From Caulobacteraceae bacterium (GTDB lineage Bacteria > Pseudomonadota > Alphaproteobacteria > Caulobacterales > Caulobacteraceae): DNA of 35,705 bases. Position numbers and translations under genes: made by a program. The stretch covers positions 1 through 35,705 of the forward strand of contig JAFANN010000216.1 of NCBI GenBank assembly GCA_019232665.1, written 5' to 3'. Positions 11,399 to 28,491 of the stretch are shown piece after piece; the first letter of the stretch is position 1; every line of letters begins with the position of its first letter. The notes beneath the pieces are model-generated. The model saw only the letters and a list, made by a program, of their open reading frames with translations. It made no database searches and was not told where the DNA came from.

Positions 11399-12049
11399 TT
11401 AGTTTCCCCCTTGGACGTTTTCGTCCAAAAAATCCTGATGGAACTGCGGCTCTTCGTCGGCCTCGAGCGGATCCTCCTGAAGGTCCGCCCCGACCTCCGC
11501 GAGAACGAAGTTGGCAGGCATGTCCGCCGAAAGCAGACCAGCCGCCTTCATCTCCGCAGCCCCCGGAAGATCGTTAAGGCTCTCGAGCCCGTAGTGCGCG
11601 AGGAACGTTTCGGTTGTGGCCCAGGTGACGGGACGGCCGGGGCTGCGCCGACGTCCCCGCATCCGCACCAGCTCCATCTGCAACAAGGCGTCGAGGGTCC
11701 CCTGACCAGATTGGACGCCTCGGATCGCGTCGATCTCCGAGCGCGTCACCGGCTGGTGATAGGCGATGATCGCAAGCGTCTCCTGCGCCGCCCGTGACAG
11801 GCGCCGTGGCTCCTCCCGCTCCTTCGTCATCAGGAACGCCAGGTCCGGGGCGGTGTTGAAGCGCCACCCCGAGCCGATCTGCGAGAGGATGACGCCGCGG
11901 CCGAGATAGCGCTCGCCCAATGCCTTGAGGGCCGAGGAGATATCGGCGCCCTCGGGAAGCCGCTCGGCGAGGTCCTCGAGGGTCAGGGGCTCGGCTGCGG
12001 CGAAGAGCAGCGCCTCCACCATCCGCTCGGTCTCCGACGCGTCGATCAC
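11399..12049 (-). CDS. scpB: segregation and condensation protein B (ScpB)
   Basis: A 216-residue non-SMC subunit of the SMC-ScpAB condensin, made of two winged-helix domains: MVEALLFAAAEPLTLEDLAERL in the first, and RLSRAAQETLAIIAYHQPVTRSEIDAIRGV in the second, the strongest family signature. The start is GTG 12049, which overlaps the scpA stop in GTGA; a longer reading to 12220 would run back into scpA and lacks family similarity. An acidic tail extends beyond the core. Confidence 0.94.
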   Translation of the reverse strand: MIDASETERMVEALLFAAAEPLTLEDLAERLPEGADISSALKALGERYLGRGVILSQIGSGWRFNTAPDLAFLMTKEREEPRRLSRAAQETLAIIAYHQPVTRSEIDAIRGVQSGQGTLDALLQMELVRMRGRRRSPGRPVTWATTETFLAHYGLESLNDLPGAAEMKAAGLLSADMPANFVLAEVGADLQEDPLEADEEPQFHQDFLDENVQGGN

Positions 12050-12843
12050 GCGCTCACGCTCGCGCGCAGATAGAGGGGATCGAAATGCGCCGTCTGCTGC
12101 AGTTCGAGATCGCCCTCCTTGGCCAGTTCGAGGGCGGCGGAGAGGGTCGAGGCCACGCGCGAGGCCGCGCTCGCCCCGCTGCAGTCCTCCGAGGGCGCGA
12201 CCTTGGGAAGCGCCGTCCAATCGGTCAGGCTCGGAAGGAGCGTTCGCAGGCGCTCGCGCGCATCGTCCAGGCGATAGGCCTCGACCGGACGGGGGCGGTA
12301 GCTGCGCTCCTCATCCCTTCTGCGGGCCTCGGCGTAGGCGCTCATCAGCTCGAGCAGGTCGCCCTCGAGACGCCGCCGCGACACGATCGTGACCGCCTCA
12401 GGGTCCCCGCGCATGAAGACGTCGCGCCGAAGTTGCGGGCGTACGGCCAGCGCCTCAGCCGCACGACGGATTGCGTCCAATCGCGCCAGGCCGAACGCGA
12501 GCCGCGCGGCCATCTCCTCCGCGGGACGCTCGGGCTCAGGGGGCCGCTCGGCCTTGGGCAGGAGGAGACGCGACTTCAGGAAGGCCAGCCAGGCGGCCAT
12601 GACCAGGTATTCCGCCGCCAGGGCGAAGCGCAGGCTCCGGGCGGCGCGTACAAAGGCCAGATACTGCTCGGCCAGGCGCGCAATGGAAATCTGGAGAAGG
12701 TCGACCTTCTGCGACCGCGCCAGGTCGAGGAGGACGTGCAGCGGGCCTTCGTAGGGCCCAAGAGCGACGATCAGCGCCTCGCCATCGGCGGCGGCGCTCT
12801 CCACCGCTTCGAAGTCGAATTTCGGCTGAACGTAGGCGTTCAC
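12046..12843 (-). CDS. scpA: segregation and condensation protein A (ScpA)
   Basis: A 265-residue kleisin that bridges SMC heads. The N-terminus YEGPLHVLLDLARSQKVDLL matches the family's Y.GPL.LLL.LI....DI signature, followed by AEYLVMAAWLAFLKSRLLLP. The C-terminal part holds the second winged-helix SMC contact region. GTG 12843 overlaps the nagZ stop in GTGA, and its own stop overlaps scpB in the same way. Confidence 0.94.
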   Translation of the reverse strand: MNAYVQPKFDFEAVESAAADGEALIVALGPYEGPLHVLLDLARSQKVDLLQISIARLAEQYLAFVRAARSLRFALAAEYLVMAAWLAFLKSRLLLPKAERPPEPERPAEEMAARLAFGLARLDAIRRAAEALAVRPQLRRDVFMRGDPEAVTIVSRRRLEGDLLELMSAYAEARRRDEERSYRPRPVEAYRLDDARERLRTLLPSLTDWTALPKVAPSEDCSGASAASRVASTLSAALELAKEGDLELQQTAHFDPLYLRASVSA

Positions 12844-13853
12844 ATGGCCCCCACCGCCAGGGCGGCGCTCAACCTCGCCCTGACGTCCCGATCATCAATC
12901 GATTCGGGCGAATACGGGCGCCTCACCAGGGCAGCCCTCGCCCGCTCTGCGGCCCGGCCTGCGAGAGATCGGGCGCCCGCGGCGACCTCGCGCATCTCCC
13001 CAGGATCGCCGTTGCAGTGCAGGACGATGTCGCAGCCGGCGTCCAGAGACGCGCGGGCGCGGTCGCGGATCTCGCCGCTGAGGGCCTTCATCGAGAGGTC
13101 GTCGCTGACCAGCAGGCCATCGAAGCCGATCCGGCCACGGATGACCTGCGAGACCACCTCCGGCGATGTGGTGGCGGGCCGCCGCGGATCGACGGCCTCG
13201 AACACCACGTGAGCGGTCATGGCGATCGGCATGTCCGAGAGCCGGCGAAAGGCCTCGAAGTCGACCCGGTCCAGCTCCTCCAGGCCCGCGCGGACGACGG
13301 GGAGCGCCTCGTGACTGTCAGCGCCGGCGCGGCCGTGGCCGGGAACATGCTTGACGACGGGCAGGACTCCACCGGCCATAAGCCCCTCGGCGGCGGCGCG
13401 AGCCAGCCGCGCTACCTCGGCCGGATCGTCGGAATAGGCGCGGTCGCCGATGATGTCGTGGGCGCCGGGCGCCGGCACATCCGCCACCGGCGCGCAGTCC
13501 ACGTCGATCCCTACCGCGGCCAGGTCGTGAGCCATCAGGCGCGCCGACAGCCGTACGAGCTCACGGCGCTCGTACGGGTCGGCGACGGCCTGGAATGCGC
13601 GCGCCGGCGGGTAAGCCGGCCAGTGCGGCGGCCCCAATCTCTGGACCCTCCCCCCTTCCTGATCGATCAGGATCGGGGCGTCCGGCCGGTCCACGAGTCC
13701 CCGCAGCGCGGCCGTGAGCCGCCGGAGCTGCCCAGGGCTCTCGACGTTGCGGCGAAAGAGAATGAACCCCCACGGGCGCGCTTCGCGGAAGAAGGCTACC
13801 TCATCCGCGGTCGGCGCGAGCCCCGAGAGGCCGAAGATGCAGGCGAGCGTCAC
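12840..13853 (-). CDS. nagZ: beta-N-acetylhexosaminidase NagZ
   Basis: A 337-residue glycoside hydrolase family 3 enzyme that removes GlcNAc from cytoplasmic muropeptides in cell-wall recycling. It shows ILIDQEGGRVQRL, the catalytic loop KHVPGHGRAGADSH with the Asp-His dyad, and FDGLLVSDDLSMKAL with the nucleophile Asp. The preferred start is GTG 13853 (VTLACIFGLSG), which overlaps the SPOR-gene stop in GTGA; the frame is open upstream to 13895 but those codons lie inside the SPOR gene. No signal peptide, as expected for NagZ. Confidence 0.95.
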   Translation of the reverse strand: MTLACIFGLSGLAPTADEVAFFREARPWGFILFRRNVESPGQLRRLTAALRGLVDRPDAPILIDQEGGRVQRLGPPHWPAYPPARAFQAVADPYERRELVRLSARLMAHDLAAVGIDVDCAPVADVPAPGAHDIIGDRAYSDDPAEVARLARAAAEGLMAGGVLPVVKHVPGHGRAGADSHEALPVVRAGLEELDRVDFEAFRRLSDMPIAMTAHVVFEAVDPRRPATTSPEVVSQVIRGRIGFDGLLVSDDLSMKALSGEIRDRARASLDAGCDIVLHCNGDPGEMREVAAGARSLAGRAAERARAALVRRPYSPESIDDRDVRARLSAALAVGAM

Positions 13854-19588: not shown

Positions 19589-20569
19589 ATGACGCGTCGC
19601 CTCCCCATCGCGCGCGGGCCGTGTCTGCGGCCGGCGTTCGAGGGGCTTGGCGTCGCGGTCGCCCTTGCCGCCTGTTCGCCGGCGTTCTCCCACGCTCCGC
19701 CGAACGCCTCCGGCGCAATCGCCGCGCGCCTACCGGACGGACGGAAACTGGCGTTCCACTGTTCCGGCAGGGGCGGCCCGACCGTCGTCTTCGAATCCGG
19801 CTGGGGCGCGGACTCCGGCGCGTGGGTGCGCGTCCTGCCAATGGTCGCGCCTTCAAGACGGGCCTGTGCGTACGATCGGGCGGGGTACGGCGCGAGCGAC
19901 GCGGGACCCGACCCTCGCGACGCCGCAGCCATCGTCCGGGATCTGCATGCAGGTCTTGAAGCCGCGCGTATCCGTGGACCCTACATCCTGGCGGCGCACT
20001 CCGCTGGCGGCCTCTACGTGCGGCTCTTCGCTGCGAAATACCCGAAGGAGGTCGTCGGCCTCGTTCTTGTCGACCCTAGCGTCGAGCACCAGGATACGCG
20101 CATCGCCGCCATCTTCGGTCCCCGCGCCGGCTCGATCGCGCCGCTGCAAGACCGCTCCGCGCGATGTCTGGCCGCCGCCCAAGGGGGCCGGTTGCCCTCA
20201 GCCGACCCGGCGCTCTCCGTCTGCATCCCGTCTGGTTACAAACAAGGCCCCGCCTCACTCGTCGGCTTATGGGCCGCGGAGAAGTCCGAGATCGATACCC
20301 TGTTCACCACCTCGTCGGACGAGGTGCAGCGGGACGCCGAACAGCTGGGCGCCATGCCGCTCGTCGTGCTCACGGCGGCCGGTACGGCCACCGACCCGAA
20401 TCCCGGGTTGTCCGTTTGGGCGGAGCTTCATCGGCAGGTGGCGGCGACGTCTAGTCGTGGCTCAGCGCGGCTGGTGGATCGAACCACGCACATGATGATG
20501 TTCCAGCGCCCCGACGCGATCGTCAGCGCGATCGACGACGTCGCTGCCGCGGCTCGCCGACGTCAGTAG
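19589..20569 (+). CDS. alpha/beta hydrolase, predicted lipoprotein or secreted
   Basis: A 326-residue alpha/beta-fold hydrolase. The N-terminus has a hydrophobic leader ending in VALAAC (Cys29), a plausible lipobox. The oxyanion region is VVFESGWGADSGAW, the nucleophile elbow is AAHSAGG (Ser138), and a late His is in DRTTHMMMFQRPD; an acid candidate lies in VLVDPSVEH. The substrate is unknown. It follows ppa by 30 bases on the same strand, possibly co-transcribed, and its 3' end overlaps the convergent sugar-transferase gene by 7 bases. Confidence 0.85.
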   Translation: MTRRLPIARGPCLRPAFEGLGVAVALAACSPAFSHAPPNASGAIAARLPDGRKLAFHCSGRGGPTVVFESGWGADSGAWVRVLPMVAPSRRACAYDRAGYGASDAGPDPRDAAAIVRDLHAGLEAARIRGPYILAAHSAGGLYVRLFAAKYPKEVVGLVLVDPSVEHQDTRIAAIFGPRAGSIAPLQDRSARCLAAAQGGRLPSADPALSVCIPSGYKQGPASLVGLWAAEKSEIDTLFTTSSDEVQRDAEQLGAMPLVVLTAAGTATDPNPGLSVWAELHRQVAATSSRGSARLVDRTTHMMMFQRPDAIVSAIDDVAAAARRRQ

Positions 20570-21231
20570 GCGGCGGGGTGGAAGGCGAAGATCAGGAGGG
20601 TGCGCAGCAGGATTTTGATATCGAGCAGAAGCGACCAGTTCTCGATGTATTCCAGATCCTTCTCGATGCGCGCGGCCATGTCGGCGACATCCTCTGTGCG
20701 CCCGCGCAGCCCGCAGACCTGAGCAAGGCCTGTGAGGCCGGGCTTGGTCATGAACCGCCGGTCGTAGCCGGGCACCAACTCGCCGTAGTAGGAGTCGTGG
20801 GCCAGGGCGTGAGGGCGCGGCCCGACCAGGGACATCTCCCCCTTCAGCACATTCAGCAGTTGCGGCAACTCATCAATGCTCGTGCGCCGGATAATGCGTC
20901 CCACGACGGTAATGCGATCGTCGTCACGCACGGCCTGGACGATGGTCGGTCCATCCTCGCACACTCGCATGGAGCGGAATTTGTAGATGACAAAAGAACG
21001 GCCGGCGTAGCCCGTGCGTCTTTGGCAAAAAACCGGCCAGCCGCGGGACTCGAGGACGATCAACAGGGCGACCGTCAGCAGGAGCGGCGAGAGGAGAAGC
21101 AGACCGATCCCGGCGCCTAAAATGTCAATTGTTCGCTTGAGTGGATCAGCGGCCACCCGACGAATTCCGGGCTCGATCGCAAACGAACCTTCGTCCATCC
21201 AGGTTTCGGGAAGGTCACGAGGCATCGTCAT
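20563..21231 (-). CDS. short initiating sugar transferase (ExoY/WcaJ-type, PF02397)
   Basis: A 222-residue polyprenyl-phosphate sugar-1-phosphate transferase, the enzyme that loads the first sugar on the lipid carrier. One hydrophobic N-terminal segment (LGAGIGLLLLSPLLLTVALLI) is followed by VFCQRRTGYAGRSFVIYKFRSM, RRTSIDELPQLLNVLKGEMSLVGPRPH and FMTKPGLTGLAQVCGLRG, all family signatures. It lacks the extra membrane helices of long WbaP/WcaJ enzymes. ATG 21231 is chosen; the frame is open to 21312 but that part shows no similarity. It lies 336 bases downstream of the EpsI-like gene and so may have its own promoter. Confidence 0.92.
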   Translation of the reverse strand: MTMPRDLPETWMDEGSFAIEPGIRRVAADPLKRTIDILGAGIGLLLLSPLLLTVALLIVLESRGWPVFCQRRTGYAGRSFVIYKFRSMRVCEDGPTIVQAVRDDDRITVVGRIIRRTSIDELPQLLNVLKGEMSLVGPRPHALAHDSYYGELVPGYDRRFMTKPGLTGLAQVCGLRGRTEDVADMAARIEKDLEYIENWSLLLDIKILLRTLLIFAFHPAAY

Positions 21232-21567
21232 CGCCAATGAACGACAACACTGTTCATACTTTACCCCGCTTCGTCGGCTAGGTCGCGGCGCCAGCCGTAA
21301 CAAGGTGACCATCGCAGTACACGACAGATCACCGGCCCGACCCCCGAAAGCGGCGATCCTTACTGAGGCTCACACTGCCGGACCGCCAAAATCTACACGA
21401 TTTTTCCCGGACTTAAAACCTCCCGTTCATCCCGCGCCCATTCCACGCCCTCATTCTGGATGAGGCCGGCGCGAGCATCCGCACCCCGGACACCATCATC
21501 CAAACGACCGAAGTTGGTTCAAGTTGCGTCCGTCGTGCGCCCGCCCGTTGGCGAACATCGCAGGATG
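21232..21567. other. 336-base gap between the EpsI-like gene and the sugar transferase
   Basis: I find no convincing gene here on either strand. It contains an AT-rich patch (21388-21420) with a weak inverted repeat, AAAATC (21388-21393) and GATTTT (21399-21404), which could belong to a promoter for the sugar transferase or a weak terminator of the upstream operon. Neither is established. Confidence 0.4.
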
Positions 21568-22266
21568 TCAGACGACCCTGGCCAGGGCGTCGGCTCGTTG
21601 TGACCCGATCAACACATCGCGAGTGTTCGGCGCCATCGCCTTGATCAGGGCTGGGATGAGATTGCCCATGGCCGCGATCGACGCCGCCGGGTCCGCGTCG
21701 GCTACGGAGAACCGCGCAAGCACGCCATCGGCGATATCTCCGCGCATCGCCGTCGCGAGTCGATCCTCCTGCTGCTGCAGGTGGGTCATTGGTAAATATT
21801 CGCCCAATCTAGACCAGTACAAAATCGTCTCTTGCCGGTCGGGTGCTCGGGCGATCATACTGCGGCCAGGTATGGCGACGCCCTGCGAGAGTGCGATTTC
21901 AGTCGGTCGATTGTCATAAATCGCGTATCCGAAGAACGGATAACAGATCTCAGGGCGGTGCAGCTGAAGCTTGTCATCCTGCGTATCGCCATACGCAAGC
22001 AACATCATGATCTCCGGCCCTCCCGACGAGGACGAGTACACACGACCGACGGTCTGCCCATAGAGCGTAGCCGCCAGGCTATCCTCCCGGGGCGCCACCA
22101 GATCGGAGACGTCACGCGCCGTATAGGAGCCGAACCGGTAAGGAACGATCGAGGCGAGGGACCGCCGCCCGAGCAGGGAAATGCGCCGCCGCGGCTGCAG
22201 CGCATAGGCGGCGCCCGCCCCTCCTAGGCAGAGCGAGCCAACCAGCAGGTCCCGACGCGTTGTCAT
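21568..22266 (-). CDS. exosortase-associated EpsI family protein (DUF3485)
   Basis: A 232-residue protein that partners exosortases in polysaccharide loci. The diagnostic motif HRPEICYPFFGY starts at residue 103, and LAYGDTQDDKLQLHRPE is typical of the family. The N-terminus MTTRRDLLVGSLCLGG is unusual: it has a twin-arginine pattern (TRRDLL) before a short hydrophobic stretch, so it may be a Tat substrate or a Tat-like membrane anchor. ATG 22266 overlaps the exosortase stop in ATGA; the longer frame to 22335 lies inside the exosortase gene. The biochemical role of EpsI proteins is not established. Confidence 0.88.
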   Translation of the reverse strand: MTTRRDLLVGSLCLGGAGAAYALQPRRRISLLGRRSLASIVPYRFGSYTARDVSDLVAPREDSLAATLYGQTVGRVYSSSSGGPEIMMLLAYGDTQDDKLQLHRPEICYPFFGYAIYDNRPTEIALSQGVAIPGRSMIARAPDRQETILYWSRLGEYLPMTHLQQQEDRLATAMRGDIADGVLARFSVADADPAASIAAMGNLIPALIKAMAPNTRDVLIGSQRADALARVV

Positions 22267-23159
22267 GCGCGCGCTCCCGTGGCCCTCCAGCGGTGGGCGC
22301 CAAAGGCCACGGCGCGGTCGATGGCGAAGACGCACAGGATCGCGATCGCGAATAGGAAGATACCCGCCGTAAAGTGAAGGTAGCCTTGGGCGACGTCGTT
22401 ACCGGCGTAGTAGGTCAATAAAATGAGGACCATGATCCTCAGTATGTTAGCGACGATGGCTATCGGGATTACCATCACCGTCATTAGGATAGAATATAGG
22501 ATCTTTTGGCCACGAACGAGGTATATGTAGAGAAGACTTACCGCAGTGAGCCCGACGATCGAATTCATCCCGGAGCAGGCGTCTTCGACCAGCAATTGAT
22601 ATTGGGCGACGAAGATGGTGACCCCCTGCCGAGCGACAGGGAGACCGAAGTTCGCCAGTGCGGACGTCGACGCCCAGGAGACGAACTCCTTCAGGGGCGC
22701 CGTGACCTGGGACAACAGGGCCTGGGGCGGTGGGATGACGAAGGCGAGGTAGAGAAGTGGGAACCACTCGCGCGCCATGACGCGAAGTCCGAACTTCGCG
22801 TAGAGCATGGCCATGAACACGCCGAAGAGGCCGGCGGTCTCGAAGGTCACGAAGTCATAGGCGCGGCCGAAGATGAACGAGACGAGCGAGGGGATGATAA
22901 CCGCCAGCGTGACGCCAAGGTTTCCTGGTTTGGCGGCCTCGATCATCGATGGCAGGCGGCGCCAGAGGAGCCAGGCGCCCGTCACGAGGACGACAGGGCC
23001 GTAGGCTCCAAATTCGCCCGACCAGGACTGGCGGATCAGATCCTGGACGGCGAGCGCGCCAAGCACCGCCAGCCCCGCAGCCAGCGGCCACAAGGCGCGT
23101 AAATCCCAACCGGACGAGTGGGCGGGCGCTTGGCCGGCCGTCGCGTCCACTGGGCTCAC
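22263..23159 (-). CDS. exosortase (EpsH/Xrt family transpeptidase)
   Basis: A 298-residue polytopic inner-membrane protein with about eight helices. The exosortase catalytic triad is visible: Cys195 in VEDACSGMNS, Arg241 in VANILRIM and His262 in GYLHFTAGIFLF. Exosortases cleave C-terminal PEP-CTERM-type sorting tags and are often linked to exopolysaccharide genes. I start at GTG 23159, which overlaps the CpsD-like stop in GTGA; GTG 23168 is three codons earlier. No PEP-CTERM-type substrate is encoded in this window. Which exosortase subclass it is cannot be told by eye. Confidence 0.92.
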   Translation of the reverse strand: MSPVDATAGQAPAHSSGWDLRALWPLAAGLAVLGALAVQDLIRQSWSGEFGAYGPVVLVTGAWLLWRRLPSMIEAAKPGNLGVTLAVIIPSLVSFIFGRAYDFVTFETAGLFGVFMAMLYAKFGLRVMAREWFPLLYLAFVIPPPQALLSQVTAPLKEFVSWASTSALANFGLPVARQGVTIFVAQYQLLVEDACSGMNSIVGLTAVSLLYIYLVRGQKILYSILMTVMVIPIAIVANILRIMVLILLTYYAGNDVAQGYLHFTAGIFLFAIAILCVFAIDRAVAFGAHRWRATGARA

Positions 23160-23866
23160 GCGCCGCACAAGACGGAGCCGACGACCCGTACTCCGTCGCT
23201 GGTGAGTTGGTTGGCCAAGGTCCGGACGTCCTTTACGAACGTCTTGCCCTTCCCGGCGACGATCAGGCTGTAGCCGATCACGGAACTGATCTGCTTCGCC
23301 CCGTGCGACCGGTTTGAGGGCGGCGTATCGACGATCGTCGCTTCAAAATTCCGCAGACAGAAGTCCATCAGCCCCTTGAAGCGATCACTCGCCAGCAACT
23401 CCATCGAGTTGGCGGCCGGCGATCCGGCATAAATCACCGATAGGTTCGGAAGGACCCGTGCGTCGACGAATTCGTCGTACGGCGTGTCGTCCGCCAGTTT
23501 CCGGACGAGACCGGCCGGTGGACGCTGCGGGCGGATCATTCGTTCCAGTCCCGGCTGTTGCAGGTTGGCGTCCACCAGAAGTGTGTTCACGCCGATTTGC
23601 GAGAGGGCTACGGCGAGGTTCGCCGCCGTGAACGTGGTTCCGATCCCGACGCTCGCCCCGCAAACCGCAAGGGCGCGCCGGCCCATGTTGAGATGCTGCG
23701 TGACGATGTGAGAACGCAGGCCACGAATCGCCTCTGCTTCCGGGCTCGTCGGATGCGTCAGCGTCACCAGGGAGGACGAGAACCCGAAGTTCTGCGTCGC
23801 CGGCGTGGCTGTCTGCTCGGCGTGCGGGGAGAGGAAGTCCCGCATGGAAATCGTCGTGTCGGTCAT
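23156..23866 (-). CDS. CpsD/CapB-like P-loop protein with a degenerate Walker A motif
   Basis: A 236-residue MinD-like protein of the bacterial tyrosine kinase (BY-kinase) group that partners Wzz/GumC co-polymerases. Walker A' LLVDANLQQP (96-105) and Walker B TIVDTPP (177-183) are present, but the Walker A segment reads GIGTTFTAANLA (74-85) where GEGKS/TT.AANLA is expected, so the phosphate-binding lysine is Thr77. The C-terminus lacks a tyrosine cluster. It may therefore be a non-catalytic regulator or bind nucleotide differently. Its ATG overlaps the GumC-like stop (ATGA) and its stop overlaps the exosortase start (GTGA), placing it firmly in the operon. Confidence 0.88.
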   Translation of the reverse strand: MTDTTISMRDFLSPHAEQTATPATQNFGFSSSLVTLTHPTSPEAEAIRGLRSHIVTQHLNMGRRALAVCGASVGIGTTFTAANLAVALSQIGVNTLLVDANLQQPGLERMIRPQRPPAGLVRKLADDTPYDEFVDARVLPNLSVIYAGSPAANSMELLASDRFKGLMDFCLRNFEATIVDTPPSNRSHGAKQISSVIGYSLIVAGKGKTFVKDVRTLANQLTSDGVRVVGSVLCGA

Positions 23867-25215
23867 GCGCGGGCCGCCCGCGCCGGGCTACGCGCCGTCC
23901 GCCTGCGCCCGGCCCGCCGATCGCCCGTCGCCGCGCGGGGAGCGCCCACGACACCAACAACAGGTGACTCTAGCACGTGATCAAGCTCTTCCACGCTACG
24001 TACTTTCCGGTTGAGAAGCTCCAGCAGCATCGACCCGAGAACACCAACCAAGAGACCAAGGACGATGGAACCCGGGATCTCGAGTAACCAGTTGGGGAAC
24101 AAGGGCGAAGACGGAGCCGGCGTTGGCAAGGGCGTGAGGGCGGCTGCGTTCGTCTGGTCTGCCTGGACGCGTAAGACTGCGAATTTGGCGGCAGCCGTTT
24201 CGTACTGATTGCGACGGAGATCCACATCCTGCTGCAGGGTCTGCAGGTGAGCGATCTGCGGGCTCTTGGCGAGCACCTTTTCCTTCTGGGCCGCGATTTG
24301 GCGATTCACCTCGGCCGTCAGAGCGCTCGTTGCGGAGATCGCCGCATGAGCGGCGCTCTCGTCCTTGCGGTTGAGCACCTCGAGTTCCGACTTCCTCTTC
24401 TGCAACTCGATCATCGCCGGATTGTTCGGCCCAAGGGTCTTGGACGCCGCGCTGATTTGGGAGTTCACCGAAGCGAGCTCCATAGATGACTGCTTCGCCG
24501 AATTCACCATCTCTGGTGGGATCATCACCGGCGCGCCCTGTGACGCCATCGACTGCAACCGTGCGGTGTCTACGTCGGTCCTTTCTCCGGCCATCTCAAG
24601 GCCGTTGGCGCGCTCATATTGGGCCTCAACCTCGGTCGCCTCATCAAGCTTCGCCTTGAGCTTTTCAAGTTCGACCTCGTACCATTGGGCGGTCCTCGCA
24701 GCGTCCTCTGTGCTCATCTCCAAGGAGGTCTTCAAGTACGCCGCCCGCAGGGCGTCGGCGACTGCCTTGGCCGCCGTAGGATTGTTCGCGGTGTAGCTGA
24801 TCTCGAGGATCGTACTGTCCTTGAGGGGCTTCACCTTCGTATTGCCCGCGATGATGTCCGCCGCCCATGCGCGGAATTCCCTGTGATCACCCGACCCGCG
24901 GTTCCCGTACCTCTGGATAAGGTTGGGATCGGAGAGCCAGCCGAGTTCGTCGACCACCTTGCCGGTCACAGTGTAGTCAGTGATCAGGCTCATTTGGTTG
25001 CCCACGTAGGCTCCCGACGCCGCCCCGCTGCCCGCCGCGATCTCATTGGTCACCGGATCGGGCTTGACCAGGTTGAGCAGCACACGCGACTTGCCCTCCC
25101 AGATCGGGGGCACGATGAGCGAAACGACGACCACGCCGATGAGGCAGCAGACCGTGCACATGGCGATGAACATCCGCCGTGCGAGAATGATCTGCCAAAG
25201 CGCGTTTATGCTCAT
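23863..25215 (-). CDS. GumC/Wzz-family polysaccharide co-polymerase (chain-length determinant)
   Basis: A 450-residue inner-membrane protein. Membrane helix 1 is at about 14-36 (FIAMCTVCCLIGVVVVSLIV), followed by the Wzz domain (IWEGKSRVLLNLVKPDP) and a long periplasmic coiled coil (about 180-360, rich in Glu/Lys/Ala/Gln). Membrane helix 2 is at about 372-400 (IPGSIVLGLLVGVLGSMLLELLNRK), and about 49 cytoplasmic residues end in an Arg/Ala-rich tail. The kinase domain found fused in some relatives is here the separate CpsD-like gene, overlapping in ATGA. It would set polymer length and bridge to the OPX protein encoded 116 bases upstream. Confidence 0.92.
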   Translation of the reverse strand: MSINALWQIILARRMFIAMCTVCCLIGVVVVSLIVPPIWEGKSRVLLNLVKPDPVTNEIAAGSGAASGAYVGNQMSLITDYTVTGKVVDELGWLSDPNLIQRYGNRGSGDHREFRAWAADIIAGNTKVKPLKDSTILEISYTANNPTAAKAVADALRAAYLKTSLEMSTEDAARTAQWYEVELEKLKAKLDEATEVEAQYERANGLEMAGERTDVDTARLQSMASQGAPVMIPPEMVNSAKQSSMELASVNSQISAASKTLGPNNPAMIELQKRKSELEVLNRKDESAAHAAISATSALTAEVNRQIAAQKEKVLAKSPQIAHLQTLQQDVDLRRNQYETAAAKFAVLRVQADQTNAAALTPLPTPAPSSPLFPNWLLEIPGSIVLGLLVGVLGSMLLELLNRKVRSVEELDHVLESPVVGVVGAPRAATGDRRAGRRRTARSPARAARA

Positions 25216-25331: not shown

Positions 25332-26156
25332 TCAGAACAGTCGTTCCCCGACCACCAGAACATCGCCGGACCGTACGGGCTGCTCCAGATCGATATGGCC
25401 CTGCTTCTTTCCGTCGCGGGTGAGGGTGACGCGGCTATAGGTTCCCTGATCGGTTATCCCACCGCCCCGCGACAGCGCCATCCGGACCGTCTCCCCTGGA
25501 GTGATCGGGTAGGCGCCAGGAGCCTTCACCTGTCCAGACACATAGACCAGGTCCGCAGGCGGACTGTACAGCTTGTCGCCGGGCGCGACATATGGGTCGT
25601 CCTTGGAATCGCCTCCGGCGAGGTCGGCAATGCGGATCTTCCGCTCGTGACCATTACGCGGAGTATAGTCCACGTAGTCCGCTCCGCTCTCCCTGACTCC
25701 TCCGACACGAGCGACGATTTCCGACAGGCGATACGGGTGGTCGATCGGCACGAGGCCCGGCTGGTTGAAGTTACCAAGGACCGTCATATACTTGCTGCCA
25801 AACGAGACGACGTCGATCTTGACGATCGGCGCCGCGTAGAACCCCCCGCTCTTGAGCTTTTGGGCCACTTCGTCGGAGAGCTGACCCACGGTCTTGTTTG
25901 CCGCCTTGACCACTCCGATCATCGGCAGACGAATGACTCCGTCTTCCGTGATCCGCTGTTTGGTCGTGTAGTCCGCCTGCCCCAGCAGATCGACCTCGAT
26001 TACGTCGGCGGGACCAAGCACATAGTCCTGCGACGCGCCCATGGTCTCGGCAGGCGCGGGGGCCGGGGTTGGCGTTTGAGCGAACGCGCTGGCGCCCAGA
26101 CCGGACAGGAGCGCGATCACAAAGCTGATAAGAAAGGCGCGGAAGCGGGATGTCAT
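25332..26156 (-). CDS. polysaccharide export (OPX) protein, short GumB-like
   Basis: A 274-residue exported protein with a Sec-type leader (cleavage near AFA-Q, about 27), a PES domain starting at about 44 (DYVLGPADVIEVDLLGQADYTTK), and two SLBB-like domains (about 122-195 and 203-270). It lacks a lipobox cysteine and ends right after the last SLBB domain (VLVVGERLF), so it has no C-terminal amphipathic helix like that of E. coli Wza to form an outer-membrane pore. Such short OPX proteins probably use a partner beta-barrel, and the gene directly upstream encodes one. ATG 26156 follows GGAAGGA; a start at 26186 would precede the leader. Confidence 0.92.
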   Translation of the reverse strand: MTSRFRAFLISFVIALLSGLGASAFAQTPTPAPAPAETMGASQDYVLGPADVIEVDLLGQADYTTKQRITEDGVIRLPMIGVVKAANKTVGQLSDEVAQKLKSGGFYAAPIVKIDVVSFGSKYMTVLGNFNQPGLVPIDHPYRLSEIVARVGGVRESGADYVDYTPRNGHERKIRIADLAGGDSKDDPYVAPGDKLYSPPADLVYVSGQVKAPGAYPITPGETVRMALSRGGGITDQGTYSRVTLTRDGKKQGHIDLEQPVRSGDVLVVGERLF

Positions 26157-26188
26157 GCACGGTCCTTCCAAGTTTGGCGCGCTCAAGT

Positions 26189-27535
26189 TCAGAACGTTGT
26201 ATGGGCGGTCATCGACACAGTTACATCATTATAATTGTATGGAGTAAAGTTTGCTGTCCTTTGTGAGTAACTTATCGCAGGTCGAAGCGAGATATGTCTA
26301 TTTAAACGGAAATTTGCATTCGTATAAAAACCGTTTATTGTCTGCTCAGTGAGAATGAAGGCAACAGGAAATAAAATTCCCTCGTAATTTTCATGCGTTC
26401 TAGAGTAACCGGCAGAAATAGATAACCGGTCTCCAAGAGCGTAGGCGGCCTCCATGCCATAGATTTCGGTTATCAGAAACGTCGCTTCGATCTCGTTCGA
26501 CGGGGTAACGCCCCTTCCCGCAACCAAAGTCAGGGTCAACCGTGGGTTTAACGCGTAGGCGATGTTAGCATCATAAGTGATGCCGCTGAATCCTTGCGTG
26601 AAAGCAGTATTGGGCTCAAGTCTTGTATAGTTCACGGACAGCGAGCCCGAGAGGCGTGAGCCCACTGTGCGCGCCAAGGTCACACCGCCGCCCATCGTCT
26701 GAAAACCGAATCCAGTGGTCATGCTGCCGAAGGGCACGAATCGATTTGGGTAGTCGACCTTGCTATACTGGCCATCAATAGTCGCCGAGCCCAGGACAGG
26801 ATTGCGGTAGGTTATGCCTCCCGAACCGGAAAATATATGCGCGTCGATCGCTTGGAACGATGGAGAGCTGTTGGTCACCCACACCTCGGACACGTTCGCT
26901 GTGGGTGCGAAACCGATGCTTCTGCCACAGATCGCGGTAAAATCCACGACTGCGTTGGTTTGAGTGTCCTTGGCGGCAAGGACTGGGCGTGTGCCTCCGA
27001 CAGAGATCGGAAGAGTTGAAAGGTCCGCCTGCGAGCGATCATATGCCCCGGCAAAAGTTCCCTGGCATAGGCTGAATTGACCGACCGCGCCGGCGCCGAG
27101 CTTAATGTTGTCTCGGTCAAGAAATGAATTGCGAGCATAGGCCTTATAGCCAAAGGCCGCGTCTAGAAACACGGTTTCACGGCCGAAAACTTCAGAAAAC
27201 AAGGCGTTGGCGGACGGTAAGACGTAAAAGTCCTGCTGCTTCACGCCACGGGCGGCGGCGAGGGCGGCGCTCGAGCGGGCAACGTTGCTGTCATAGGCTG
27301 TCGTCACATCGACGCCAATCTGCCTCTCGTCGACTCCGGGAGTTATCTGAGGCGCCGAGATTCCGAAGGTCGGCAATCCTGCGACCTGAGCCGCAGAAGG
27401 CGAGGAGATCATCCCCACGGCGACCGCGGTGAAAGTCGCTGCCAGAAGATGTCCTCTCGCCAAAACGGGCGAGCGGACAGGAGGAACGCGAGACACGCTC
27501 CCCCACCGGTCGGACGGAGAAGGCCGTCTGTCCAT
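26189..27535 (-). CDS. outer-membrane beta-barrel protein of the exopolysaccharide locus
   Basis: A 448-residue protein with a long N-terminal leader ending near SAAQVAG, then alternating polar/hydrophobic strands throughout and a C-terminal Phe (MTAHTTF), the signal for outer-membrane insertion. It resembles the barrel proteins found beside exosortase/OPX genes (BBP2_2-like). ATG 27535 follows a near-perfect GGAGG at five bases. It lies 17 bases after the EpsD-like gene and 32 bases before the OPX start. Composition is odd: 26221-26400, coding for the last strands, is about 36% GC by count, whereas the 5' end is about 63%. The likely job is the polymer pore, by inference. Confidence 0.82.
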   Translation of the reverse strand: MDRRPSPSDRWGSVSRVPPVRSPVLARGHLLAATFTAVAVGMISSPSAAQVAGLPTFGISAPQITPGVDERQIGVDVTTAYDSNVARSSAALAAARGVKQQDFYVLPSANALFSEVFGRETVFLDAAFGYKAYARNSFLDRDNIKLGAGAVGQFSLCQGTFAGAYDRSQADLSTLPISVGGTRPVLAAKDTQTNAVVDFTAICGRSIGFAPTANVSEVWVTNSSPSFQAIDAHIFSGSGGITYRNPVLGSATIDGQYSKVDYPNRFVPFGSMTTGFGFQTMGGGVTLARTVGSRLSGSLSVNYTRLEPNTAFTQGFSGITYDANIAYALNPRLTLTLVAGRGVTPSNEIEATFLITEIYGMEAAYALGDRLSISAGYSRTHENYEGILFPVAFILTEQTINGFYTNANFRLNRHISLRPAISYSQRTANFTPYNYNDVTVSMTAHTTF

Positions 27536-27552: not shown

Positions 27553-28491
27553 TCAGTTACCGCCCGAAGACGCTTGGGCGCCCGACGCGCTAGACGCCGG
27601 AGCGGCAGGTTTTGCCGCGGATGGCGGCTGCGCCTGGCCGGTAGCCGTCGAATTCAACGAGCCCGCCTCAGCGAACTCCTTGCTGAATTTGACCTGCTTC
27701 AGGTTCTGAACGAACAGCTGCTGGAAGCGTCTCCGGACCGCCTCTTCCGTGCGCTGCTTCGTCACGATTTGCTGGGCCAGGGGGACCGCCTTGTCGGCGG
27801 GCACCGGCTCGATCCGGGTGTCCTTGATCTGGTTGACGGTGATCAGCTGGCCTGCGGGAAGGACGAAGAGCTCGCCTGGCGGCAGCTTCTGGATCGCCGC
27901 GAGGAGCCGCGGATCGGCGGTGAGGGCGTCAAGCCCAGCCGTGGTCCGCTGGAACGGGATCTTGTCCTGGGTGAGCAGGGCCTGGATCTGGTCGAATGTC
28001 TTCAAGGGCTCGAGCGCAGTGAGGATCGCCGGATCCGTTGGACGCCTCATCTGCAGCTGATCCAGAACGTAGATCTTGCGCTGGGCGAACATATCGGGAT
28101 TGGCGTCGACGAAGCGCTGCGCTTCATCCTTCGTGGCTTGCGGCACCTGCGAAACGATCTTCTGCTGCAGCGATTGCACCAGCAGAGCGTCGATCGCACG
28201 CTGTTTCGCGAGCGCAAAGTCGGGGGTCTTCTCAAGACCTTCCTTGCGGGCCTCGTCCGCCACGATGCTCCGGCCGACGATGTTCCGGATGGCCGCGGTT
28301 TCGGCGACCTTCAGAGTTTTGGCGTCGGGAGCGTTGTAATTCCCAAGTTCTGCGCGCACGTCGCGCATCGTGATTTCCTGCCGGCCCACGGTGGCGACCA
28401 CCTGTCCGGTTGGAGTCTTGGCCCCGTTGTTACACGCGCCGAGCACACCGCACACAGCAGCGGCCAGAACAATCCCCGCCCGTCGATCCAT
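27553..28491 (-). CDS. EpsD-family peptidyl-prolyl cis-trans isomerase lipoprotein
   Basis: A 312-residue periplasmic lipoprotein. The leader ends in VLGAC (Cys20); then comes a SurA-N-like helical region (ATVGRQEITMRDVRAELGNY; IVADEARKEGLEKTPDFALAKQR) and a degenerate parvulin-like segment (KLPPGELFVLPAGQLITVNQIKD), ending in an Ala/Ser/Gln-rich tail. EpsD proteins accompany exosortase-type polysaccharide loci. Being first in the operon and next to the barrel gene, it may help fold the barrel. The ATG at 28491 has a weak ribosome site. Confidence 0.87.
   Translation of the reverse strand: MDRRAGIVLAAAVCGVLGACNNGAKTPTGQVVATVGRQEITMRDVRAELGNYNAPDAKTLKVAETAAIRNIVGRSIVADEARKEGLEKTPDFALAKQRAIDALLVQSLQQKIVSQVPQATKDEAQRFVDANPDMFAQRKIYVLDQLQMRRPTDPAILTALEPLKTFDQIQALLTQDKIPFQRTTAGLDALTADPRLLAAIQKLPPGELFVLPAGQLITVNQIKDTRIEPVPADKAVPLAQQIVTKQRTEEAVRRRFQQLFVQNLKQVKFSKEFAEAGSLNSTATGQAQPPSAAKPAAPASSASGAQASSGGN

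Follow-up and report, generated by a model that had tools for sequence, protein, structure and literature searches.

How does a polysaccharide cross the outer membrane when its export protein appears too short to span it? The question is raised by an operon in a 35,705-nucleotide stretch of Caulobacteraceae DNA ("the window"; contig JAFANN010000216.1 of assembly GCA_019232665.1), which encodes a short outer-membrane polysaccharide export (OPX) protein homologous to EpsE and, immediately upstream of it, a beta-barrel homologous to EpsL. We find that this couple is very probably a composite OPX/beta-barrel translocon, a two-piece outer-membrane terminus for an exopolysaccharide exporter of the Wzx/Wzy type. 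This is the best-supported reading of a short OPX protein without a membrane-spanning helix, a barrel modeled with 18 strands and no plug, the adjacency of the two genes, their co-occurrence even in genomes that separate them, a single instance of joint decay and the co-divergence of the two proteins. The OPX and barrel models and the same comparative evidence thus uphold a sequence-only reading of this DNA, which had proposed such a two-part conduit. The composite translocon itself is already published, and the natural unlinking of its genes and the joint decay are the fresh evidence presented here. The whole operon lies on the minus strand in the order epsD-L-E-F-G, exosortase V and epsI, followed by a phosphoglycosyl transferase (PGT) gene:

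27553..28491, minus strand: EpsD-like protein of the peptidyl-prolyl isomerase (PPIase) family, 312 aa, with the lipobox VLGAC; first gene of the operon.
26189..27535, minus strand: EpsL homologue, predicted outer-membrane 18-strand beta-barrel, 448 aa, predicted to be mature from about residue 50, with invariant Cys157 and Cys203.
25332..26156, minus strand: EpsE homologue, short OPX protein, 274 aa, with a type I signal, Poly_export and two SLBB stretches, and without a C-terminal helix.
23863..25215, minus strand: EpsF-like polysaccharide co-polymerase (PCP), 450 aa.
23156..23866, minus strand: EpsG-like protein of the BY-kinase fold, probable pseudokinase, missing the Walker A lysine and the C-terminal Tyr cluster.
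22263..23168, minus strand: exosortase V (XrtV), NF035943 319.5 bits (cut-off 313).
21568..22335, minus strand: V-type EpsI, NF045608 240.8 bits (cut-off 228).
20563..21312, minus strand: PGT, catalytic domain alone, 249 aa.

The OPX open reading frame (ORF) spans 25332-26186 on the minus strand, with an ATG at 26156 that yields the 274-residue product. It matches Poly_export (65.9 bits), SLBB_2 in two stretches (68.1 bits) and, at the level of a homologue, the NCBIfam EpsE equivalog TIGR03028 (142.1 bits, below the cut-off of 262.65). The N-terminal sequence, MTSRFRAFLISFVIALLSGLGASAFAQT, contains no Cys and looks like a type I signal. Among its 79 relatives (from the 80 loci described below, with the distant L175 excluded), a single one shows a lipobox-like pattern, and all 79 terminate in Phe with zero residues beyond the end of the profile match. 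The AlphaFold model (63-row alignment, pLDDT 88.9) likewise ends in a strand, its last element being E235-240 of 243, and has no C-terminal helix. VIA-align places model residues 4-241 onto residues 74-345 of E. coli Wza, i.e., D1-D3 (domain names D1-D4 as used in PMC9601211), with a Z of 18.4 and a root-mean-square deviation (rmsd) of 4.7 over 235 residues. The alignment stops at Wza residue 345-349, so that EpsE shares the D1-D3 fold of Wza, whereas the D4 helix, the outer-membrane-spanning trait of class 1 OPX proteins, and the lipid anchor of Wza are missing from it. The model also matches the class 3 OPX protein WzaB (9n9a; Z 15.3). The domains, N-terminus, model and relatives thereby bear out the earlier description of a protein with PES and SLBB domains that stops after the last SLBB domain and has neither a lipobox nor a Wza-like helix.

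The barrel, too, was correctly described from the sequence as a 448-residue protein ending in Phe with a strong ribosome site: the coordinates agree, the C-terminal residue is Phe and GGAGG stands immediately 5' of the ATG. It matches BBP2_2 (45.8 bits, cut-off 23.7), and its score against the NCBIfam EpsL equivalog TIGR03014 (69 bits, below the cut-off of 275) makes it a homologue rather than an equivalog; all 16 barrels in alignment A2 match the same model. Structure prediction, proposed earlier as a check, gave a confident 18-strand barrel (68-row alignment, pLDDT 91.6) with only short helices between the strands and no plug domain. The best re-ranked solved structure is AlgE (5d5d; Z 20.8, rmsd 5.2, 306 aligned residues), and the barrel profile run against the sequences of solved structures returned only weak TodX matches (E 0.05-0.07). 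Two cysteines, Cys157 and Cys203 (mature 108 and 154), are invariant in 68/68 rows and, if the topology follows from strand order, would lie at the periplasmic ends of the neighboring strands 5 and 6. A disulfide between them, near the putative OPX docking side, is conceivable. The periplasmic and extracellular strand halves are almost equally conserved (1.95 and 1.90), and this was not used as docking evidence. Across the 3' half of the barrel gene (window positions 26000-26999), the G+C content drops to about 50%, against 60-65% around it.

These features place the couple beside known composite systems. Schwabe 2022 (PMC9601211) considers OPX proteins that carry a PES (PF02563) domain and do not exceed 280 aa, those of the composite type having no C-terminal alpha-helix and an outer-membrane beta-barrel gene within five genes; the window protein has 274 aa, the domain, no such helix and an adjacent barrel gene. 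The Myxococcus xanthus EpsY/EpsX couple, as well as WzaX/S/B and their barrels, are described there as combining a short helix-less OPX protein, neighboring genes and an 18-strand barrel nearest AlgE, and EpsX and EpsY are reported to interact and stabilize each other. Unlike EpsY, window EpsE has two SLBB stretches, and where the myxobacterial lipid-anchored EpsY-type OPX proteins carry a type 2 signal peptide, it has a type I signal. The type 2 signal is not a defining class 3 trait, since about 30% of class 3 OPX proteins carry Sec/SPI signals according to Saidi 2022 (PMC9603273). The window couple further differs from that of M. xanthus in lying in an exosortase operon and in its barrel being of the EpsL/BBP2_2 family. 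A PCP and a BY-kinase-like protein are encoded beside the couple, the latter recalling the stand-alone BY-kinase-fold protein without catalytic residues of M. xanthus, EcpK (PMC12004946). Another parallel is Sphingomonas sp. LM7, also an alphaproteobacterium, in which the barrel gene directly precedes the OPX gene and a PCP and a kinase-like gene follow; deletion of either prmC or prmD of its promonan cluster is reported to abolish exopolysaccharide production (PMC11340318). LM7 differs in having an AAA+ gene between OPX and PCP and synthesis genes in the same cluster. The earlier reading had called the window locus an alphaproteobacterial candidate linked to an exosortase; the link stands, as the couple shares its operon with XrtV, but LM7 means that it is not the first alphaproteobacterial case. 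Vibrio cholerae VpsN/VpsM is listed as another short OPX/barrel couple (PMC9601211). The words EpsL and exosortase do not occur in the main text of Schwabe 2022 or Saidi 2022.

The arrangement is conserved. An OPX-anchored, alignment-based contig scan retained 80 loci from 85 relatives, part of them from genomes that are also in the family sample below; a scan with the single OPX sequence, in contrast, found no relative. In 69/80 loci, some of them from Phenylobacterium and Sphingomonas strains, the barrel gene lies directly upstream of the OPX gene on the same strand, an arrangement too widely shared to be chance. The 11 loci without an adjacent barrel comprise four same-genus operons (L096, L097, L099 and L101), two loci cut near the OPX gene by a contig end (L098 and L112), four from Sphingomonas with no XrtV in the locus stretch (L142, L150, L158 and L160) and the distant Zixibacteria locus L175. 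The ORFs scanned in the four Sphingomonas loci, a subset of all, gave another barrel in L150 only (S. jeddahensis), a Porin_O_P protein at 12043-13566 after the OPX-PCP-kinase genes, which is perhaps an alternative barrel for the same OPX protein. In all four, the product of the divergent gene beside and upstream of the OPX gene is a beta-helix protein carrying RTX repeats.

Presence and absence follow the same lines. In a family sample of 149 genomes, which are related to each other so that no probability is attached to the counts, an OPX orthologue (E<=1e-60, the next genome being at 8e-19) occurs in 17, and the barrel (E<=1e-20) occurs in 17/17 of these and in 1/132 of the others. That sole other genome, G020, has an OPX gene about 4.5 kb from its barrel. 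Relaxing the threshold to E<=0.001 adds two barrel genomes, namely G055, with a remnant, and G144 (E 1.4e-8), where the match adjoins another OPX gene. Across a class-wide sample of 385 genomes, OPX matches below 1e-40 are confined to the window genome and G284, each with the barrel on the same contig, so that this sample contributes little; barrel matches at E<=1e-5 occur in 76.

Five genomes separate the two genes physically. G085, G070, G063 and G110 have an operon running from EpsD to OPX without the barrel and a homologous barrel on a different contig; in G046 the barrel is also on another contig, but the operon contig stops at OPX. All five fall on one side of a branch in the OPX+PCP+XrtV tree (support 100/98), so that a single barrel move in five sister genomes is the simplest reading of these trees; the barrel tree is consistent with this, without firm support (76/90). 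A homologue of Wzx (Polysacc_synt_3) and/or Wzy (Wzy_C) lies within about 5 kb of 5/5 relocated barrels, with both in L084, L085 and L087, Wzy in L086 and Wzx in L088, and acyltransferase, methyltransferase, hexapeptide-transferase, oxygenase and beta-helix genes are also found nearby in the three loci scanned for them. Elsewhere, Wzx and Wzy homologues share the operon contig in G062, Wzx lies about 5 kb from OPX in G098, and the window genome has a Wzx homologue and a partial Wzy homologue on small separate contigs. Neither these two nor a further glycosyltransferase is among the window proteins scanned, a subset of its ORFs. Searches for Wzx found no homologue in G115, G063, G055, G034 and G076, and those for Wzy none in G115, G055, G034 and G076. 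Because of the homologues near the relocated barrels, on the G062 operon contig, near the G098 OPX gene or elsewhere in the window genome, the likeliest reading of the operon is as the exporting half of a Wzx/Wzy pathway, to which the distant homologues would then belong.

One further genome shows the couple decaying together. In G055 (100% complete; contig C51, L092 6210-10913), the operon has lost OPX and PCP, the start of EpsG is cut off and the barrel is broken into two fragments, while EpsD, XrtV, EpsI and PGT are retained in place. The absence of Wzx and Wzy from G055 is not specific, as neither was found in G115 (83% complete) despite its exporter. Since G055 keeps XrtV and EpsI, exosortase V here outlives the exporter, in a single genome. 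Counted at E<=1, PEPxxWA-CTERM matches number 40 in the window genome, the best above the cut-off, and 5 in G055; exporter-bearing genomes have 14-66 (six of the same genus), 21 (G098) and only 6 (G062), and five XrtV-less genomes have 0-2.

The two proteins also diverge together. Over 60 rows (the window and 59 loci), protein-distance correlations select barrel-OPX (0.823), PCP-EpsG (0.799) and XrtV-EpsI (0.820) as best partners, with the adjacent pairs OPX-PCP (0.726) and EpsG-XrtV (0.759) lower, barrel-XrtV at 0.751 and OPX-EpsI high despite non-adjacency (0.78). The barrel distances thus track OPX better than they do the four other operon genes compared. With XrtV and EpsI controlled for, the barrel shows partial correlations of 0.503 with OPX, 0.139 with PCP and 0.103 with EpsG. 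In a 65-row set that adds the five relocated rows, the value for OPX is 0.505, which none of 2000 permutations reaches, whereas 64 permutations reach the 0.130 of PCP and 32 the 0.137 of EpsG. In the distances of the relocated rows to the other rows, the barrel is again best correlated with OPX (0.753).

We therefore favor the following route, of which ring formation, docking and polymer passage are the parts that we infer. EpsE, probably as a periplasmic ring of D1-D2-D3-like domains, would take the polymer from the co-polymerase EpsF/EpsG; this ring would end short of the outer membrane, and the AlgE-like 18-strand EpsL barrel, docked to it, would give the polymer its passage across that membrane.

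Several observations weigh against this route, beginning with the fold. A BenF-like porin (Z 20.4) ties with AlgE, OprD-family porins lie within or about one Z unit, and Foldseek's own first ranks are TonB receptors and porins, so the modeled 18-strand barrel would also fit substrate-specific porins and is alone no proof of export. The G+C dip over the barrel gene could reflect a recent replacement, the four Sphingomonas loci carry the same OPX type with no EpsL barrel in the locus stretch, the relocated G070 barrel has one in-frame stop (error or decay), and the barrel-OPX correlation is -0.03 when restricted to the five relocated rows (10 distances). Alternatively, the barrel might be a porin of the OprD/BenF or Porin_O_P kind, passive or for uptake, that handles sugars or breakdown products of the polymer, with OPX using another, unlinked barrel; the tie with the porin structures and the modifying enzymes that, besides the Wzx/Wzy homologues, adjoin the relocated barrels would suit such a role. 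We regard this as improbable, given that the barrel follows the OPX operon (17/17 versus 1/132 genomes), decays with it in G055 and, among the five partners compared, co-diverges best with OPX. Also unfavorable to a composite translocon are the high barrel-EpsI correlation (0.777, though non-adjacent) and the distribution of XrtV, which is nearly as tight as that of the barrel: XrtV is in 16/17 OPX genomes and 2/132 others, missing from G045 (operon contig of 3,978 bases) and extra in G055 and in G040 (below the cut-off), and presence and absence accordingly tie the barrel to the whole operon and not to OPX alone.

That distribution, the shared operon and the fall in PEPxxWA-CTERM matches from 40 in the window genome to 5 in exporter-less G055 would be expected if the barrel served exosortase V, letting PEPxxWA-CTERM proteins out through the outer membrane or anchoring them there, its link to OPX being mere operon neighborhood. 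Yet G055 retains XrtV, EpsI and five such matches with a broken barrel; the number of matches says little, since G062 has six with a whole exporter; the barrel left XrtV for Wzx/Wzy surroundings in five genomes; its correlation with XrtV is below that with OPX; and L155 has barrel and OPX without XrtV within an 18.7 kb stretch. We consider this role very unlikely, and hold the same of an OPX ring that reaches the membrane otherwise, by a partner lipoprotein or insertion of the ring top, with the barrel helping in assembly or modification, much as Wzi/GfcD-type barrels may assist Wza. Wzi- and GfcD-like barrels are indeed described as encoded near class 1 and 2 OPX genes as well (PMC9603273), but the OPX protein here, unlike class 1, has no D4 helix or lipobox, and the 1,230 short OPX proteins surveyed in PMC9601211 show a dichotomy between a helix (535) and a coupled barrel (453).

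Turning to the neighboring genes, the EpsD-like protein scores under the cut-offs of both TIGR02925 (100.1 bits against 108.9) and Rotamase_2 (24.6 against 27), and its VLGAC motif predicts a lipoprotein; the PPIase-family part of its earlier description as a periplasmic PPIase thus stands at a sub-threshold level, and the freely periplasmic part does not. The idea that it folds the barrel found no support, and we dropped EpsD as a dedicated barrel chaperone: of the 69 barrel-bearing loci, 17 have it immediately upstream of the barrel, 22 have it elsewhere in the stretch and 30 do not have it in the stretch, and in the four same-genus barrel-less operons long enough to show it, it is still beside OPX. 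The EpsG proteins of these operons are a probable BY pseudokinase family, judging from their motifs. The Walker A lysine is missing from 84/85 aligned proteins (window and paralogues counted), with Cys in 59 and Lys only in L175, and the last 25 residues are Tyr-free in 71/84 relatives. This stand-alone BY-kinase fold without Walker A lysine or Tyr tail is what characterizes bipartite PCP-2/BY pseudokinase pairs, and EpsG resembles EcpK and HfsB of the EcpK/EpsV and HfsB/HfsA pairs (PMC12004946). Unlike EcpK, which keeps no motifs, EpsG has mostly preserved its Walker A' and B aspartates across the relatives.

The operon also contains an exosortase V system, with XrtV and V-type EpsI above their cut-offs and PEPxxWA-CTERM proteins in the genome; a limited literature search, which says nothing of papers beyond it, returned no relevant paper on XrtV, exosortase V or PEPxxWA-CTERM. 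The gene kinds of the operon (D, E, F, G, H, I and L) are those of the XrtB-type eps operons with EpsE/EpsL (TIGR03028 and TIGR03014), although the window proteins score far below the equivalog cut-offs. The methanolan operon of Methylobacillus is an XrtB-type eps operon. EpsH disruption is reported to have left methanolan production unaffected (Haft 2006), in line with an exosortase separable from export. The operon flanks in the window include secDF, tatC, serS, surE, scpA, scpB, ilvD and msrA; promoter-like sites number 2, on a par with the 1.7 of shuffles, and terminator-like sites 3 against 6.3, i.e., fewer than in shuffles. Elsewhere in the window genome lies another OPX/barrel couple, this one of XrtA type (L052, contig C129, 7611-12963), with an OPX protein at 212.6 bits to TIGR03027 (above 180), a barrel at 88.3 to TIGR03016 (just below 90.85), a deacetylase at 398.2 to TIGR03006 (above 276.2) and a kinase whose Walker A motif looks intact. 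The same genome has a further short OPX gene immediately after an HtrA-like PDZ protease gene (L053 5949-7873, contig C14).

It is tempting, if unlikely, to go further and see in the barrel a separable, fast-evolving, polymer-specific exit gate that can leave the operon to travel with Wzx/Wzy yet keeps pairing with OPX, and in the same conduit one that exosortase V also needs; the processing or display of PEPxxWA-CTERM proteins would then be coordinated with polymer export. As for the composite translocon itself, the interaction evidence in the literature examined comes from Myxococcus, and the unlinking in five genomes, the decayed operon in a sixth and the 60-row co-divergence suggest that OPX and barrel stay paired even after their linkage in an operon is lost.

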